DNA of 64,000 nt from Acidihalobacter aeolianus (GTDB lineage Bacteria > Pseudomonadota > Gammaproteobacteria > DSM-5130 > Acidihalobacteraceae): assembly GCF_001753165.1 (NCBI RefSeq), contig NZ_CP017448.1, positions 1,754,462 to 1,818,461 of the forward strand, in the 5' to 3' direction. A model generated the notes under the pieces. That model made no database searches. It was given only the letters and a program-made list of their open reading frames with translations, and had not been told where the DNA came from. Position 1 is the stretch's first letter. Each line of letters opens with the position of its first letter. The position numbers and the translations under genes are program-made. Positions 16,827 to 23,006 of the stretch are shown here, in pieces.

Positions 16827-17634
16827 GGGCCCGTTCACATTAATTTTGATATAATTGCTGCATGGAAATTACCTTGCAGCAGTACAAAATCATCGAGCCC
16901 TTGTTGCCGCTTCCGCGAGGCAATATAAAAATATCCAACCTACAGGTGCTTAACGCGATCCTGTACGTGGCCGAGCATGGCTGCAAGTGGCGTGGCTTAC
17001 CGGTCCGTTTCGGTCGCTGGCACAGCATCTATATGCGCGCCAATCGCTGGGCCAAACAGGGCGTGCTGGATCGAGTCTTCCTGGCGCTGCAGGAAAACGA
17101 CGTGATTAATATCCAAGTCGATCATGTCTCGCTCGATTCCACAGCCGTCAAGGTTCATCCAGACGGAACCGGTGCTTTAAAAAAAACGGTCCTCAATCTA
17201 TCGGCAAATCCCGCGCCGGATGGACAACCAAGATTCATCTGGTCGCCGCCGGAGCCAATCGAGCCGTAGCCTTTCGACTTTCCCCGGGACAGGCCGGAGA
17301 TGCACCAGAAGGCAGAAAACTGCTCAAAAGCCTGGAGCACTGCGGCTGGGAAGGCACCTCGGTCATCATGGACCGCGCCTATGAGGGTGACGAGACGCGC
17401 CAGCTCGCGCTGGATCTGGGTATGACCCCAGTGGTGCCGCCCAAGCGCAATCGGCTCACGCCTTGGGAATACGATCTTGAACTTTACAAGAAGCGCAATG
17501 AAGTCGAGCGACTATTCCGAAGACTCAAAGGATTTCGGCGCATCTTCTCACGCTTCGATAAGCTCGATGTCGTCTTCACCTTCTTCATCCACTTCGCTCT
17601 CATCGTCGATACACTTATTAGTGTGAACAGGCCC
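16827..17634 (+). mobile_element. IS5-family (IS427-type) insertion sequence, 808 bp
   Basis: The left end GGGCCCGTTCACATTAA (16827-16843) and the reverse complement of the right end, GGGCCTGTTCACACTAA (17618-17634), match at 15 of 17 positions. Both ends are flanked by TA (16825-16826 and 17635-17636), consistent with the short TA target duplication of the IS427 group. Between them lies a two-frame transposase. It sits about 85 bases upstream of the c-di-GMP gene's reading frame and may separate it from its original promoter. Confidence 0.88.
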
Positions 17635-17637
17635 TAG
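16862..17637 (+). CDS. IS5-family transposase in two overlapping frames
   Basis: Frame A (16862-17269) encodes MEITLQQYKIIEPLL...HGCKWRGLP...RWAKQGVL...VSLDSTAVKVHPDGTGALKK, with the first catalytic Asp in the LDST block. The protein continues in the -1 frame (NGPQSIGKSRAGWTTKIH...VIMDRAYEGDE...KRNEVERLFRRLKGFRRI) to 17637, giving the second Asp and the ERLFRRLK Glu of the DDE site. The switch coincides with eight A residues at 17179-17186, a plausible -1 slippage site, so the enzyme may be made by programmed frameshifting; a mutation is the alternative. The stop TAG (17635-17637) lies just outside the IS and uses the TA of the target site. Confidence 0.85.
17179..17186 (+). other. A8 slippery run, candidate -1 frameshift site of the transposase
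   Basis: Reading TTA AAA AAA in frame A and slipping back one base gives AAC GGT CCT. This joins ...GALKK to NGPQSIG, the sequence usual at this place in IS5-family transposases. The run is too regular to tell a programmed site from a homopolymer error. Confidence 0.6.
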
Positions 17638-17806: not shown

Positions 17807-18256
17807 TCAGTCCGAGCAGCGCAGGCACTGGATATCGTAACGCTCGATCCACGCTCTGAGCGCGGCCATCGCCTCGGGTCCAGTGTGCAGGCCGGTCAAC
17901 GCCGCCTCGATGCCGTCCTGTGGCTGCAACCGAGCGACCCAAGCGTCCCGGTAGGGGTCGATATTGAGCAGATGGCCATCATCGACCACAGCCTCGTTCC
18001 GCTCGATGACCTGAGCAGCGAAGGGGATGGGAACGCCGCCCGCCCATTTGCCGCTTTCCAGAGTAGCCACGTGACGTCCGGGCTGGATCAAGGTTCCCGG
18101 CTTCTTGATGCGCGCGCGGAGGATTCGCCCGGCAAAGGTCTGCGCGGGATCGGTGATTCCCACCGTCGCCGTGCCATCGGCCTCGGCACGCAGCCAGACA
18201 TAATCGAGATCGTAATAGAGCTCTTCGGGAAGCTCGCAGCCACGGTACGTAGTCAT
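17807..18256 (-). CDS. GcvH-like lipoate-binding protein (LbpA-like)
   Basis: This 149-residue protein has a glycine-cleavage H-like lipoyl fold: YYDLDYVWLRAEADGTATVGITDPAQTFAG, then the lipoylation hairpin with TLESGKWAGG (Lys70) and PIPFAAQVIERNEAV. The ESGKW motif, instead of the ESVKAASD type of true GcvH, resembles LbpA proteins of the sHdr sulfur oxidation pathway. No gcvT/gcvP or hdr genes are nearby, so that link is family-based inference. The start overlaps the hemerythrin stop by four bases (ATGA), so the two are translationally coupled. A region of 170 bases without a clear gene separates its end from the IS. Confidence 0.75.
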   Translation of the reverse strand: MTTYRGCELPEELYYDLDYVWLRAEADGTATVGITDPAQTFAGRILRARIKKPGTLIQPGRHVATLESGKWAGGVPIPFAAQVIERNEAVVDDGHLLNIDPYRDAWVARLQPQDGIEAALTGLHTGPEAMAALRAWIERYDIQCLRCSD

Positions 18257-18699
18257 ACGGCGCCCTCCAGCTCACTCGCGGCGCGCTCTCCGACAGCCTG
18301 CAACCGAGACTCTGGCTCGAAAAGAGGGAACACGTCGCGTTCCTCGGTGGCATGGTGATCGGCAACGATACGCAGCAACGTTTGCAGAGTGTCCTGCACG
18401 TCTTGGTGATCGTGCGCAGCAACCGCATCCGCCAGTTCATCGAAGAAGACCGGAAGTTCCTGGTGACGTTTGCGCAGGAAGGCGAGGGTGCGTCGACCTT
18501 CGTCGTCGGCCACCGTCTCGAACGCGGGGTAAACGATGCGTTCCTCGACGTCGATGTGGTGGACCAGATGCGCCTTTTGTCGCGCCACGATTTCAGCCGC
18601 CTTGTCCCAATGACCACCCCCGGCGAGTTCTTCCAGACCCTCGAGACGCGCCTCCATCTCGCGATGCTCACCCAAAAACGCCTGATCGAAGTGATTCAT
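18253..18699 (-). CDS. Hemerythrin HHE-domain protein
   Basis: The protein has 148 residues starting at ATG 18699 (MNHFDQAFLGEHREME), preceded by AGGTGAG. The diiron-binding pattern is visible: GEHREME, HLVHHIDVEERIVYP, KRHQELPVFFDEL and DHHATEERDVFPLFE, giving the HHE repeats of bacterial hemerythrins. Such proteins bind O2 or NO or act in Fe-S repair. It is the first gene of a two-gene unit with the lipoyl protein and is divergent from the thioredoxin-like gene. Confidence 0.88.
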   Translation of the reverse strand: MNHFDQAFLGEHREMEARLEGLEELAGGGHWDKAAEIVARQKAHLVHHIDVEERIVYPAFETVADDEGRRTLAFLRKRHQELPVFFDELADAVAAHDHQDVQDTLQTLLRIVADHHATEERDVFPLFEPESRLQAVGERAASELEGAV

Positions 18700-18848
18700 C
18701 GTACTCACCTCATGGTTGCCTGAGATGCATACAGATGACTGCGATCGGCGCGGGATTGCCTTGACCCACATCAAGGCGTCTTGGCCGCTTCCTGTCGGAG
18801 AATCACCCGTGTCCGGTCCGTTTGATCGCATCAACGCGGGGGAATGGC

Positions 18849-19157
18849 ATGAAAGTCCAACTACTGGTTTCGCAATGGTGTCCGAGCTGCCCCCAGGCAG
18901 AACGCGTGTGGGGGCAATTGGCTGAAGAGCGACATGACTTCGAATACGAGGTGCTCGATGTGGGCGTGAGGCCCGGGCGCGACATCGTTTCCAATCTGAT
19001 GATACGCAGCATCCCAGCCACCGTGATCGATGGGAAACTGTATGCCGTAGGCGTGCCGAGCAAGACAGAGGCCCAAGAGTTCATCACCCAGGCCAGCGGA
19101 GCGGTTACTCGCCAGCATGACACCCAGCCATTACATGTACATGCGCCAACTGCCTGA
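18849..19157 (+). CDS. Small thioredoxin-fold protein with CPSC motif
   Basis: This 102-residue protein begins MKVQLLVSQWCPSCPQA; the redox pair is Cys11/Cys14 in a thioredoxin-like WCPSC motif. Later it has RSIPATVIDGKLYAVGVPS, in which the cis-Pro (IPA) of the fold is present. ATG 18849 follows a strong GGGGGAA site; an upstream start would add nine residues. No signal peptide is present, so it is probably cytoplasmic. Its partner is unknown. The divergent hemerythrin and lipoyl genes suggest a shared redox or sulfur function. Confidence 0.8.
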   Translation: MKVQLLVSQWCPSCPQAERVWGQLAEERHDFEYEVLDVGVRPGRDIVSNLMIRSIPATVIDGKLYAVGVPSKTEAQEFITQASGAVTRQHDTQPLHVHAPTA

Positions 19158-19226: not shown

Positions 19227-19484
19227 TCAGGCGATGGGATGCGGGCTGATCTCGTCCGCAAAGCACGCCACGGGTGGGCCGGCGTCACCACTCTCGGTGC
19301 TAAAACTGACCAGATAAAGCTCGGTATCCGGCTCCAGTTCCACATGCCCCGTGTTGATCAGCATGCCCATGGTACCGGGTAGCGCGAACACCTGATTCGG
19401 CTCGCACCCCGGCACGGAACCGTCGTTGACGATGGTCGTGGTTGCATAGACGGCATCGCCGTTTTGAAGTTCGCTGAGCTGCAT
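19227..19484 (-). CDS. NifZ-like small protein
   Basis: The protein has 85 residues starting at ATG 19484 after GGAGG. The pattern GDAVYATTTIVNDGSVPG...PGTMGMLINTGHVE...ELYLVSF and GPPVACFADEI resembles the SH3-like NifZ family, whose best-known member helps nitrogenase P-cluster assembly. No nif genes are seen here, so the role is open. It follows the unknown gene at 19529-20239 by 45 bases on the same strand and may be co-transcribed with it. Confidence 0.6.
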   Translation of the reverse strand: MQLSELQNGDAVYATTTIVNDGSVPGCEPNQVFALPGTMGMLINTGHVELEPDTELYLVSFSTESGDAGPPVACFADEISPHPIA

Positions 19485-19528
19485 GATCGTCACCCTCCGA
19501 CTGACTGCTGTCGTCGACAAAGGGCGCC

Positions 19529-20239
19529 TTAGACGGCGCCCCAAGCCTCGCGCTTCACATCGGTTACGGCCTCGAGCAACTCATCCAGGCTCCTTACCGA
19601 ACCCTTCGCCTGATAGCTCTTCATCTCCTGGTAAAGCGTCTTGATCTTGTCTCCCGGGGACTGGCCCTTGAAATCGCTTTTTTCCAGAGCCAGCTCGTCA
19701 ATGGCCTCGTTCCAGCACACGCCTTGAACCAGAGGAATGATGGCCGCCTTGGTATTGCCGATTTCGTAAATCGCCCGATCCTTGGCATTCACCACAAACA
19801 GCATCATGCATAGGTCGCTGGCAAAATCCTTTTCAAATCGATCCAACAACCGCGGCATCATGTCAATTCGATCAAGGCTACCCACCAACAGATGAAGTTT
19901 GTCGTCGGCCAGGAGTATCGCACCGCGCAGAATCTCCTGAGGGGGGTTAGGGTGACCTTTGTCATCCAGCCCTCCGTCGACGATGACCAGATCGCCTCGG
20001 TATGCACTCAACCCAGGAGTTGATGTCTCTTCCAGAAAATTGGAATTGAAGAGCAGATTGTCGTTTTTGTAGTCGTTCAGAACCACGAGCCATCTCCATT
20101 GATCACATGACGTCCAATGGATACGGGCAATCTTTGTGCCGGTCGACAGTCTCCGAGGATTCATACAAAGAAACAAACAGTTAGTAAAATCAGCCCCCGT
20201 AACAGGGGACCCAAGGTTGGTAGCATTTGCCACAAACAC
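19529..20239 (-). CDS. Unknown protein with a ParA-like strand but no P-loop
   Basis: I do not recognise this 236-residue protein. A GDLVIVDGGLDDKG segment resembles the Walker B/switch strand of ParA/MinD ATPases, and LLVGSLDRIDMMPRLLDRF plus LFVVNAKDRAIYEIGNTKAAIIPLV fit an alpha/beta fold. No deviant Walker A motif is present, and the first 25 residues look unlike a natural N terminus. GTG 20239 has AAGGA six bases upstream; ATG 20164 is another possible start. It may be a 5'-truncated or recombined gene. It ends about 45 bases before the NifZ-like gene, and its start is only about 65 bases from the dif site. Confidence 0.5.
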   Translation of the reverse strand: MFVANATNLGSPVTGADFTNCLFLCMNPRRLSTGTKIARIHWTSCDQWRWLVVLNDYKNDNLLFNSNFLEETSTPGLSAYRGDLVIVDGGLDDKGHPNPPQEILRGAILLADDKLHLLVGSLDRIDMMPRLLDRFEKDFASDLCMMLFVVNAKDRAIYEIGNTKAAIIPLVQGVCWNEAIDELALEKSDFKGQSPGDKIKTLYQEMKSYQAKGSVRSLDELLEAVTDVKREAWGAV

Positions 20240-21446: not shown

Positions 21447-21542
21447 TCACAGTCCGTAGTGGCTATGCAGGAACCAGAGCACGACCGTGGCGCACATCAC
21501 CACGGTATCTCCGCCTGTGTGCACCATCGTGAGCGCGCTCAT
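21447..21542 (-). CDS. 31-residue predicted membrane peptide of the element
   Basis: The start ATG (21542) overlaps the regulator's stop TGA as ATGA, and the stop TGA is at 21447-21449. The peptide is MSALTMVHTGG followed by a hydrophobic stretch (DTVVMCATVVLWFLH) ending HSHYGL, one membrane helix. Very small membrane proteins of this kind are common in filamentous phages. The overlap with the gene before and the 8-base gap to the gene after support translation. Confidence 0.5.
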   Translation of the reverse strand: MSALTMVHTGGDTVVMCATVVLWFLHSHYGL

Positions 21543-22084
21543 GCGGTCACCATCGCTTGCTGGTGCTGGACCCGCTGCACGCCGGCGATGAGCTTGCGCA
21601 GTCCCTCCTCGACCTGCTCGCGTTCTTCGCTCTCCGGGATTTTTAGGTTGTCGCTGTAGATGAGTGCCAGCATCAGTCCGACCAGGTCGAGCTTGCCGAT
21701 GAGTTTCAGGTGATCTGCCACGCGTTCGTCCACGCCGAGTAGCAGGTCTGAGGGTTTGAAGTGATGACTGCCGGTTTTTCCGCGACTGAGCTGTTGCAGG
21801 ATCGTTAGGGAACGGATTTCACCTGGTGAGAAGCTGTCTTGCTCGGGCGACCACAATTTGCCGTCCTTAAATCCCCAGCCTTCCCAGTTTTGCGCGTAGG
21901 GAATGCCGTCTGTGACCGTCCTGAACCATTTCCACGCGGCCGGCGGCATTTTTCCGGTTCCGCTTTCCCAGCGCCTCCAGGTGCGTGCTGAGACGTCGAC
22001 AATTTTGGCGGCCTTTTCGACGGTCAGCCTCCCTACTCCAAACCGCTGCCGTCTAATTTCGTTCGCATTTGGTGATTTATCCAT
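21539..22084 (-). CDS. HTH regulator, DUF3653-like phage protein
   Basis: The protein has 181 residues from ATG 22084 (MDKSPNANEIRRQRFG). The HTH reads LTVEKAAKIVDVSARTWRRWESGTGKMP, followed by the phage-type block WEGWGFKDGKLWSPEQDSFSPGEI seen in DUF3653 proteins of filamentous phages. The C-terminal 90 residues are helical. The start codon is within the degenerate dif-like site. In the integrated state, host DNA also provides an in-frame ATG at 22096 (MVRIMDK). It is the first gene of the element operon and is likely its regulator. Confidence 0.7.
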   Translation of the reverse strand: MDKSPNANEIRRQRFGVGRLTVEKAAKIVDVSARTWRRWESGTGKMPPAAWKWFRTVTDGIPYAQNWEGWGFKDGKLWSPEQDSFSPGEIRSLTILQQLSRGKTGSHHFKPSDLLLGVDERVADHLKLIGKLDLVGLMLALIYSDNLKIPESEEREQVEEGLRKLIAGVQRVQHQQAMVTA

Positions 22085-22094
22085 TATGCGAACC
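22067..22094 (-). other. Degenerate dif-like attachment site
   Basis: On the - strand it reads GGTTCGCATAA TGGATA like dif, but the XerD arm is AATCACCAAAT, with 7 of 11 positions changed. It marks the far end of the integrated element. The changed arm belongs to the element and the XerC arm to the host side. Confidence 0.8.
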
Positions 22095-22220
22095 ATCGGA
22101 TTCGCAGGGGTCAGGGCTTGCCGCCGCTAAGCGGCTGATATTGAAGCCCGCTAATCTACCATCATGGCTAGCGGTGTGTTCAGATTGACTCTCCCCCGCC
22201 GATTCAAGCTAAATTGAAGC

Positions 22221-23006
22221 ATGACTCAGACAATTACCGATCTTGTTGATTTTTCGCTCTACCCGCTCGATGACGAGTCATTTGCCAATGACTGTGCTGA
22301 GCGGCTTACCGCCAACGGGGTGCTCACACTTCCAGGTTTTCTGCGCAGCAGTGTTGTTGGAACTCTGGCGGCGGAAGCTGAGGCGCAGAAGCACGAGGCC
22401 TATTACACCTCGAATACGCATAATGTTTATCTGACAGACCTGCGTCCTGAACTAGGCACCGATCACATCTACAACCGGCAGGTCCAATCGTCAAAGGGCT
22501 GCATTACGACAGATCAAGTGTCTGATCTTTCGGGATTGAAGACCATTTATTTTTCGGACGAATTCCGTCGATGCGTTGCGGGTATCGTTGGTAAGGCAGC
22601 ACTGTACGAGTATGCAGATCCGCTGTCCTCCATCAATGTCCATTACGCCAGCGACGGCCAGGAACTTGGCTGGCACTTCGACAATTCGGAATTCGCAATC
22701 ACCCTGCTTCTACAGTCACCGGAAAGCGGTGGACAGTTTGAATATGTCAGGGATTTGCGGGATGCGGATCATGGCGAGTTGAATTTCGGTGGCGTTGCCA
22801 AGGTACTCGACCATGAAACCGGGGTCGAGCAACTCGATATCACGCCGGGTACGCTGGTCCTGTTCCGCGGTCGCAATTCCATGCATCGGGTGACCCCCGT
22901 CATTGGCGGGAAGACACGTATTCTGGTGGTGCTTGCCTATAATTCCGAGCCCGAGATCGCGCTCTCGGAGCCGGCACGGATGACCTTTTTCGGCCGCCTT
23001 GGCTGA
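22221..23006 (+). CDS. Fe(II)/2-oxoglutarate oxygenase, HalD/BesD-related
   Basis: The 261-residue protein has the facial triad His152-x-Asp154 (LGWHFDNSE) and His222 (NSMHRVTPV), with the 2-oxoglutarate Arg233 (GGKTRILVV). It resembles proteins often named HalD/BesD-family halogenases. True halogenases replace the Asp by Gly or Ala; here Asp is present, so hydroxylation is more likely. The substrate is unknown. ATG 22221 is 126 bases past the element end. No biosynthetic partner genes are adjacent. Confidence 0.75.
   Translation: MTQTITDLVDFSLYPLDDESFANDCAERLTANGVLTLPGFLRSSVVGTLAAEAEAQKHEAYYTSNTHNVYLTDLRPELGTDHIYNRQVQSSKGCITTDQVSDLSGLKTIYFSDEFRRCVAGIVGKAALYEYADPLSSINVHYASDGQELGWHFDNSEFAITLLLQSPESGGQFEYVRDLRDADHGELNFGGVAKVLDHETGVEQLDITPGTLVLFRGRNSMHRVTPVIGGKTRILVVLAYNSEPEIALSEPARMTFFGRLG

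Follow-up and report, generated by a model that had tools for sequence, protein, structure and literature searches.

A stretch of 64,000 nucleotides from Acidihalobacter aeolianus (contig NZ_CP017448.1, positions 1,754,462 to 1,818,461; hereafter the window) contains neighbouring genes for a lipoyl-domain protein, a hemerythrin and a thioredoxin-fold protein. The lipoyl protein (17807-18256, minus strand, 149 residues) was recognized from the open reading frame (ORF) list, Pfam and NCBIfam as a GcvH/LbpA-like protein with a single lipoyl domain. Its predicted lipoyl lysine, K70, lies in an ESGKW loop (codon 18047-18049, minus strand), and its cysteines are Cys7 and a C-terminal pair, C144-x-R-C147. 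It belongs to a third group of lipoate-binding proteins for which the label LIP3 is used here. On the same strand lies HEM1 (18253-18699), a hemerythrin (HHE) protein of 148 residues counted from its ATG, whose gene overlaps that of LIP3 by the four bases ATGA (18253-18256). The dedicated thioredoxin-fold protein (Trx; Thioredoxin_3, 102 residues, C11-P-S-C14) is encoded divergently from HEM1-LIP3 on the plus strand (18849-19157); the ORF list starts it with a TTG at 18822, and the alignment of relatives identified the conserved start MKVQLLVS with the ATG at 18849. The respective Pfam scores are 99.7 bits for GCV_H (cut-off 22.2), 72.1 bits for Hemerythrin (cut-off 25.3) and 47.6 bits for Thioredoxin_3 (cut-off 24.8). 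ORFs and Pfam agree with the preliminary description of this DNA, which had noted an LbpA-like ESGKW protein, a hemerythrin whose gene shares four bases with that of the lipoyl protein, and a CPSC thioredoxin-fold gene in divergent orientation.

LIP3 among lipoate-binding proteins

Residues C7, K70, C144, R146 and C147 are invariant in 61 aligned LIP3 proteins, which represent the window, three relatives from its family and 57 of 64 loci retrieved by the peptide scan described below (L055, L082, L088, L091, L113, L115, L116 and L011 were left out). In two LIP3 proteins of a class-wide genome sample (L127, L129), ESSKW replaces ESGKW. The predicted LIP3 model has a pLDDT of 92.7, the C-terminal CxRC end being its least certain part, and its top matches in the PDB are H-proteins, the lipoylated one of Escherichia coli first. 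LIP3 shares with GcvH this fold and the position of the lipoyl lysine. However, it is 34-39% identical to the five GcvHs of the family, which carry ESVKA where LIP3 has ESGKW, and the window protein scored under the curated cut-offs of both NCBIfam GcvH models (67.3 versus 115.85 and 101.9 versus 117 bits).

The likeness to LbpA1 and LbpA2 of the sHdr system, as these are characterized in the accessible text of PMC6067878, includes the single GcvH-like lipoyl domain with its conserved attachment lysine, the ESGKW loop and two cysteines absent from GcvH, one near each terminus (C7 and C144 in LIP3, plus C147). LIP3 is found in the same organisms, and the same lipoate-assembly genes are present in the genome. 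Unlike these LbpAs, LIP3 is usually encoded outside the shdr cluster, forms a separate group in the tree, ends in a CxRC motif with two cysteines and is accompanied by a constant Trx partner and, in half of the loci tested, by a DNR/FNR-type box. In the tree, 72 LIP3 rows formed one group (support 75/90, recovered in 71% of bootstrap trees) next to the LbpA of the lbpA1 position and apart from the other LbpAs and GcvH, which places LIP3 outside the LbpA1 and LbpA2 types with moderate support, the reference LbpAs being the 10 of the family and 12 of the class sample instead of the published set. Within it, the loci of the 4TM type described below correspond to a starred clade of 44 rows. By sequence, LIP3 is a third class of lipoate-binding protein that is usually encoded away from the shdr cluster. 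The published LbpA alignment would hardly have included it, because that alignment was restricted to 95 proteins whose genes lie within or adjoin hdr clusters (PMC6067878). No description of the LIP3 class or of a lipoyl-Trx-gas-protein system was found in the openly accessible literature, supplements and subscription papers being outside the scope of the search.

The genome of the window (3.5 Mb, two contigs) encodes four GcvH-like proteins, all on contig C1: GcvH (815 kb, ESVKA), two LbpA-type proteins in tandem (899-900 kb, ESGKW) and LIP3 (1772 kb). The region C1:893-905 kb contains, in this order, a rhodanese-like gene, hdrC1-B1-A-hyp-C2-B2, the two LbpA genes and lipS1-slpl-lipT-lipS2-like genes. 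Seven genes of this cluster were scanned with Pfam. The hdr genes returned 4Fe-4S (hdrC1), pyridine-nucleotide oxidoreductase (hdrA) and CCG (hdrB2) domains, and the lipoate-assembly genes, at about C1:900.5-905.1 kb, returned radical SAM, lipoyl-ligase catalytic, FAD-binding and again radical SAM domains. The exact shdr and lip gene names rest on gene order as given in the accessible parts of three articles (PMC10332631, PMC6382920, PMC6067878). The dedicated lipoate-assembly genes envisaged in the preliminary description do exist in this genome, and LIP3 itself lies neither in nor next to the hdr cluster.

Distribution and partners of LIP3

The LIP3 gene was found in all five genomes of the family, the four relatives being 68-83% identical to the window protein, and in all five a hemerythrin gene lies upstream of it and a Trx gene beside it. 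The retention of this gene set in 5/5 genomes argues against a chance assembly. A scan of genome contigs with LIP3-specific N-terminal peptides, whose specificity makes the result a lower bound, retrieved at least 64 loci, among others from Acidithiobacillus, Sulfuriferula, Thiobacillus, Sideroxydans, Thioalkalivibrio, Rhodobacteraceae and Burkholderiales. Partners were mapped in 69 loci (the 64 scan loci, the window and the four relatives) by hidden Markov models trained iteratively on the same loci, so that the counts lean towards membership; control loci were scored with the same profiles. LIP3 was scored in 68 loci (all except L115) and Trx in 63. These 68 loci include one contig twice (L035, L060), two pairs from single metagenome-assembled genomes (MAGs; L081/L082 and L090/L091) and two partial LIP3 matches (L113, L116).

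In 62 of the 68 loci, no more than 2 kb separates Trx from LIP3. The gene directly upstream of LIP3 encodes a hemerythrin in 22 loci and 4TM_A, a membrane protein of 131 residues with four helices, in 41; both never occur there together, and five loci have neither. LIP3 starts at the stop codon of the hemerythrin gene (zero-gap junction) in 14 of the 22 HEM-LIP3 loci, with one contig counted twice, and hemerythrin and solo Trx genes are on opposite strands in 19/20 loci. No Trx, hemerythrin or 4TM gene was found within about 1.5 kb of the 22 other LbpA-type genes that served as controls (10 from the window family and 12 from the class sample, eight of them, L139-L146, belonging to genomes that gave no sHdrB2 match) or of five GcvH genes. 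The 14 LIP3 loci of the class sample contained Trx (12 loci), 4TM proteins (10) and hemerythrin (7).

Candidate functional residues of the partners are conserved. The CxxC motif is invariant in the window Trx aligned with 33 relatives, and every one of the mapped Trx proteins, 39 fused and 24 solo, contains it. HEM1 combines the Pfam domain with residues H12, H48, E52, H79, H115 and E119, which we take to be the di-iron ligands; these positions are invariant in 14 aligned proteins and kept in 21-22 of 22 hemerythrins. The window hemerythrin scored under the cut-off of the NCBIfam bacteriohemerythrin model NF033749 (22.4 versus 84 bits), and its relative in locus L061 under that of the RIC/YtfE iron-sulfur repair model (23.3 versus 204.7 bits). 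4TM_A is a small heme-oxidase-I/NnrS-like protein, and in 39/41 of its loci Trx is fused to a second domain of this type, 4TM_B. Histidines H41, H43 and H60 are invariant in 41/41 4TM_A proteins, as are H136 and H153 in 39/39 Trx::4TM_B fusions. The best family resemblances of the 4TM proteins are COX1 and NnrS, with scores below the curated Pfam cut-offs (25.8 versus 34.8 and 22.8 versus 28 bits, respectively, for the proteins of locus L078).

The association was also assessed in 369 genomes sampled evenly across the class, independently of the peptide scan. LIP3 was called at 190 bits or more, a split chosen after a gap down to the next value, 163, had been seen, and sHdrB2 was called at E values up to 1e-80; the Trx profile was built from loci of the peptide scan. 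LIP3 was found in 18 genomes and sHdrB2 in 22, with 17 having both; the only genome with LIP3 and without sHdrB2 (G389) is 75% complete. The Trx profile reached at least 113 bits in exactly the 18 LIP3 genomes, the three weaker matches elsewhere scoring 99, 96 and 81 bits. Fisher tests that ignore kinship gave 5.5e-24 for LIP3 with sHdrB2 and 8e-28 for LIP3 with Trx, weak Trx matches included. In four families (f53, f90, f107, f156) some sampled members have both LIP3 and Trx and others have neither. In genome G225 the two genes are 57 kb apart, a separation showing that the link is more than one of neighbourhood. On this genomic evidence, LIP3 occurs almost only in sHdr genomes and the thioredoxin is its constant partner. 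The hemerythrin, which the preliminary description had singled out, is indeed retained beside LIP3 in the five family genomes and in 22 loci, against the lack of conservation named there as a refutation, but it was rejected as the defining partner: Trx accompanies LIP3 in 18/18 genomes, and 4TM_A is the upstream gene in 41 of 68 loci against 22 for hemerythrin.

A survey of 50 LIP3 genomes, representing 50 of the 64 scan loci, gave a similar picture. sHdrB2 was present at 65% identity or more in 38 of them (one a fragment), LipS1 matched in 44 (some fragments) and one or the other was found in 46, the genomes with neither being G007, G019, G031 and G044. Nine shdr-lip cluster proteins of the window genome were also searched against 83 LIP3 loci (the 69 mapped loci and the 14 of the class sample). 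None of the five Hdr subunits searched was found near LIP3 in 82/83 loci; 14 of the 83 span only about 1.5 kb on each side. In the remaining one (L123, genome G080), LIP3 is followed by an hdrB1 gene of 84% identity that is cut off by the end of the contig. Another hdrB1 stretch lies about 4 kb from Trx and hemerythrin on a second contig of G080; these two stretches (L163, L165) are additional to the main shdr cluster, which begins a third contig. The preliminary description had called LIP3 a stand-alone protein with respect to sHdr. This holds for its position outside the shdr cluster, but not for its distribution, given sHdrB2 in 17/18 LIP3 genomes, the shdr cluster with two LbpAs in the window genome itself and the adjacent hdrB1 of G080.

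Genes resembling lipoate ligases (27-31% identity to sLpl) occur near LIP3 in 4/83 loci (L072, L093, L104, L124), and the one in L072 has an LplA-B catalytic domain (117 bits). Such a gene is possibly a dedicated ligase for LIP3, and these neighbours favour the lipoylation of LIP3. Separately, L096, a locus of a Burkholderiales MAG, has another lipoyl-domain gene (159 bits) about 4.0 kb downstream of LIP3 and on the opposite strand.

Regulators, the upstream box and other window genes

An FNR/DNR-type box, CTTGACCCACATCAAG (reverse CTTGATGTGGGTCAAG), lies at 18760-18775 between the divergent HEM1 and Trx genes, 60 bp from the start of the former and 73 bp from that of the latter, and the four relatives of the family have a box at a near-identical position upstream of HEM1 (73-76 bp). 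The motif YTTGATNNNNRTCAAR occurs five times in the window genome and not at all in a reversed control. One copy is that of the window, two precede genes (a Rieske gene in one case, an SCP2-domain gene adjoining a U32-peptidase gene in the other), one falls inside an ORF and one has no clear target. The SCP2-domain/U32-peptidase pair may presumably serve oxygen-independent ubiquinone synthesis. Across the loci, 31 of 62 regions preceding the first gene contained a TTGAT-N4-ATCAA box with 9-10 of 10 matches (L055 being too short), as against 0.4% in shuffles that kept base composition but not dinucleotides. Of these 31 boxes, 29 begin 47-81 bp before the start codon. The 62 regions make up about 2% of the locus bases and yet hold 31/92 such boxes. 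Upstream of the globin gene, the top-scoring site reached 8 or 9 matches in eight loci of the Acidithiobacillus type.

The strong-scoring neighbours in the 69 loci comprise Crp/Fnr regulators (32), flavin reductase (10), globin (9), NnrS (8) and SirB (6). DNR (3dkw) was the best solved relative of both Crp-type regulators tried among the LIP3 neighbours, and the N-terminal cysteine cluster of the FNR type is present in 0/32 of the LIP3-linked Crp/Fnr regulators; in the other genomes, the regulators beside LIP3 resemble DNR in closest structure (two tried) and in the missing cluster. The nearest relative of a LIP3-linked regulator in the window genome (60% identity) adjoins a hemerythrin gene and a bacterial globin gene. 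At locus L157 (G000:C1, about 2262-2266 kb), a DNR-like regulator gene stands next to genes for a hemerythrin (40.8 bits) and a globin of bacterial type (24.2 bits). This makes a second cluster of gas-response genes in the window genome, some 7 kb away from another FNR/DNR box at 2256671. Given that LIP3 loci repeatedly include DNR-like regulators, globins and NnrS, as well as a box whose distance to the start varies little, the LIP3-Trx module is probably under nitric oxide (NO) or low-oxygen control. The known DNR/NnrR regulon includes nnrS, hmp and dnrN/ytfE, according to the accessible text of PMC1274295. The LIP3 loci resemble it in the TTGATnnnnATCAA-type box and in companions of the NnrS, flavohemoglobin and hemerythrin types, but a lipoyl protein or dedicated Trx does not appear in that part of its description (PMC1274295).

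Several other genes of the window were identified. A NifZ-domain protein (19227-19544, minus strand; 38.4 bits, cut-off 27, Pfam) adjoins the Trx gene. The nif-cluster link at which it hints was rejected, nifH being about 853 kb away and tblastn finding NifZ in 0/82 other LIP3 loci. Just downstream of the lipoyl gene lies an apparently frame-broken IS4/5-family transposase in two ORFs (16862-17637, plus strand), the first of which matches DUF4096 in this region (76.7 bits). A HalD-type Fe(II)/2-oxoglutarate oxygenase is encoded at 22221-23006 (plus strand; 68 bits, cut-off 26, Pfam); its HFD motif (H-x-D) presumably favours a hydroxylase over a halogenase. A VC1465-family Xer recombination activation factor (21539-22096, minus strand; 74.2 bits, cut-off 70, NCBIfam) is surrounded by small uncharacterised ORFs, possible remains of a mobile island.

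Readings of the LIP3-Trx module

The best supported conclusion is that LIP3 and Trx are a functional unit of sHdr organisms that is used together with NO/O2-binding proteins and governed by a DNR/FNR-type switch. The window locus would be one local form of a conserved module whose core is LIP3 and the small dedicated thioredoxin, joined by a putative gas-binding component that is a di-iron hemerythrin here and heme-oxidase-I/NnrS-like membrane domains elsewhere. The function proposed for it is a dithiol relay from lipoyl protein to thioredoxin that would serve NO/O2-binding proteins in sHdr sulfur oxidisers, a reading to which we assign a probability slightly under one half (about 0.48). LbpAs are characterised by lipoylation through sLpl(AB)/LipS1/LipS2 and not through LipB/LplA. 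Lys70 of LIP3 would likewise receive its lipoyl group from the sLpl/LipS1/LipS2 pathway, whose genes lie with shdr, and the dihydrolipoyl arm could be reduced by electrons from sulfur oxidation or by dihydrolipoamide dehydrogenase. The arm would then reduce Trx, perhaps via CxRC, and Trx would hand electrons to the NO/O2-binding partner or repair it. NO or residual O2 might thereby be cleared under low oxygen, which would protect the sHdr chemistry of thiols, persulfides and [4Fe-4S] clusters. The preliminary description had proposed a different use of bound lipoate, for example in a persulfide or oxygen-sensitive step; regulators and upstream box favour a use linked to O2 or NO.

Several observations weigh against the proposed relay. 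Conservation and genomic coupling are direct results, while lipoylation, electron flow and NO chemistry are what we infer. The sHdrB2 gene occurs without LIP3 and its Trx in 5/22 genomes (G160, G201, G220, G348, G374), and the Trx relative at 99 bits belongs to a genome without LIP3 and with another LbpA-type gene (G363). No 9-of-10 box is present in 31/62 upstream regions, and two of the five box matches in the window genome lie inside an ORF or lack a clear target gene. As the motif is common to FNR, which responds to O2, and DNR, which responds to NO, either gas may be the signal. No 4TM partner was found in the window family, by a search without positive control, and a PDB fold search with the Trx::4TM_B model returned chiefly thioredoxins, receptor chains ranking first, and yielded no useful match to the membrane half. 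A further-reaching proposal is doubtful, namely that in sulfur-oxidising proteobacteria the usually hdr-unlinked third lipoate-binding protein drives an NO- or low-O2-induced chain from lipoyl through thioredoxin to heme or di-iron, in which sulfur-oxidation electrons reduce NO or scavenge O2.

LIP3 could instead be a condition-specific LbpA isoform that docks on sHdr in place of LbpA1/LbpA2 under low oxygen or NO and acts as a sulfur carrier, with Trx reducing or de-persulfidating it and the hemerythrin and heme partners merely co-regulated. LIP3 tracks sHdrB2, groups beside the LbpA of the lbpA1 position and has the ESGKW loop and the N- and C-terminal cysteines in common with the LbpAs; it is followed by hdrB1 in G080, where another hdrB1 lies about 4 kb from Trx and hemerythrin, and it is this genome that keeps the alternative alive. 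In the other 82 of 83 loci, however, none of the Hdr subunits searched was found near LIP3 (14 of the 83 spanning only about 1.5 kb on each side), and its constant Trx was not found near the 22 other LbpA-type genes, so that an isoform of this kind appears unlikely. It is also conceivable, if rather improbable, that the module is a respiratory and not a protective device, through which sHdr electrons would leave as dihydrolipoyl, passing from LIP3 to the Trx::4TM fusion and the 4TM heme partner and on to the quinone pool or to O2/NO. The 41 loci with 4TM_A directly upstream, the 39 with Trx::4TM_B and the invariant histidines suit such an electron outlet, as does the resemblance to COX1 and NnrS; these matches are nevertheless below the curated cut-offs, and in the window family and most loci of Acidithiobacillus a hemerythrin and an unfused Trx are present instead. 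The original proposal of the preliminary description, a hemerythrin that delivers or senses O2 for a persulfide or oxygen-sensitive lipoyl step, would explain the frequent zero-gap junction and the intact di-iron ligands but has little to recommend it, as the larger group of loci has 4TM_A in the upstream position and none has both. Finally, an ordinary GcvH paralogue with chance neighbours, compatible with the GCV_H match and the GcvH fold, was rejected in view of the NCBIfam scores under the GcvH cut-offs, the separate GcvH at C1:815 kb, the tree placement and the co-occurrence statistics.

For the favoured lipoyl-to-thioredoxin relay, a working analogy may be sought outside sulfur oxidation. 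In mycobacteria, DlaT (SucB), AhpD and AhpC form a lipoyl-dependent peroxidase chain for oxidative and nitrosative defence. In both cases a lipoyl protein would reduce a thioredoxin-like protein, a functional likeness that for LIP3 is predicted, while the partner proteins are unrelated; the lipoyl-AhpD chain would be the nearest working analogy for LIP3-Trx.

The work on LbpA gave lipoate a role in sulfur oxidation, and the accessible discussion of that article calls the presence of two LbpAs unexplained (PMC6067878). The LIP3-Trx module hints at an unrecognised job for lipoic acid. The tie between LIP3 and Trx suggests a concrete redox partner for bound lipoate in sHdr bacteria, and the NO/O2-type partners and regulators that often accompany them suggest that sulfur oxidation is linked to nitrosative or low-oxygen physiology. 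Two questions become testable: why sHdr organisms have several lipoate-binding proteins and how electrons exit from the dihydrolipoyl group. If true, an electron chain to NO or O2 would give protein-bound lipoate a role outside carbon metabolism and outside sulfur transfer.

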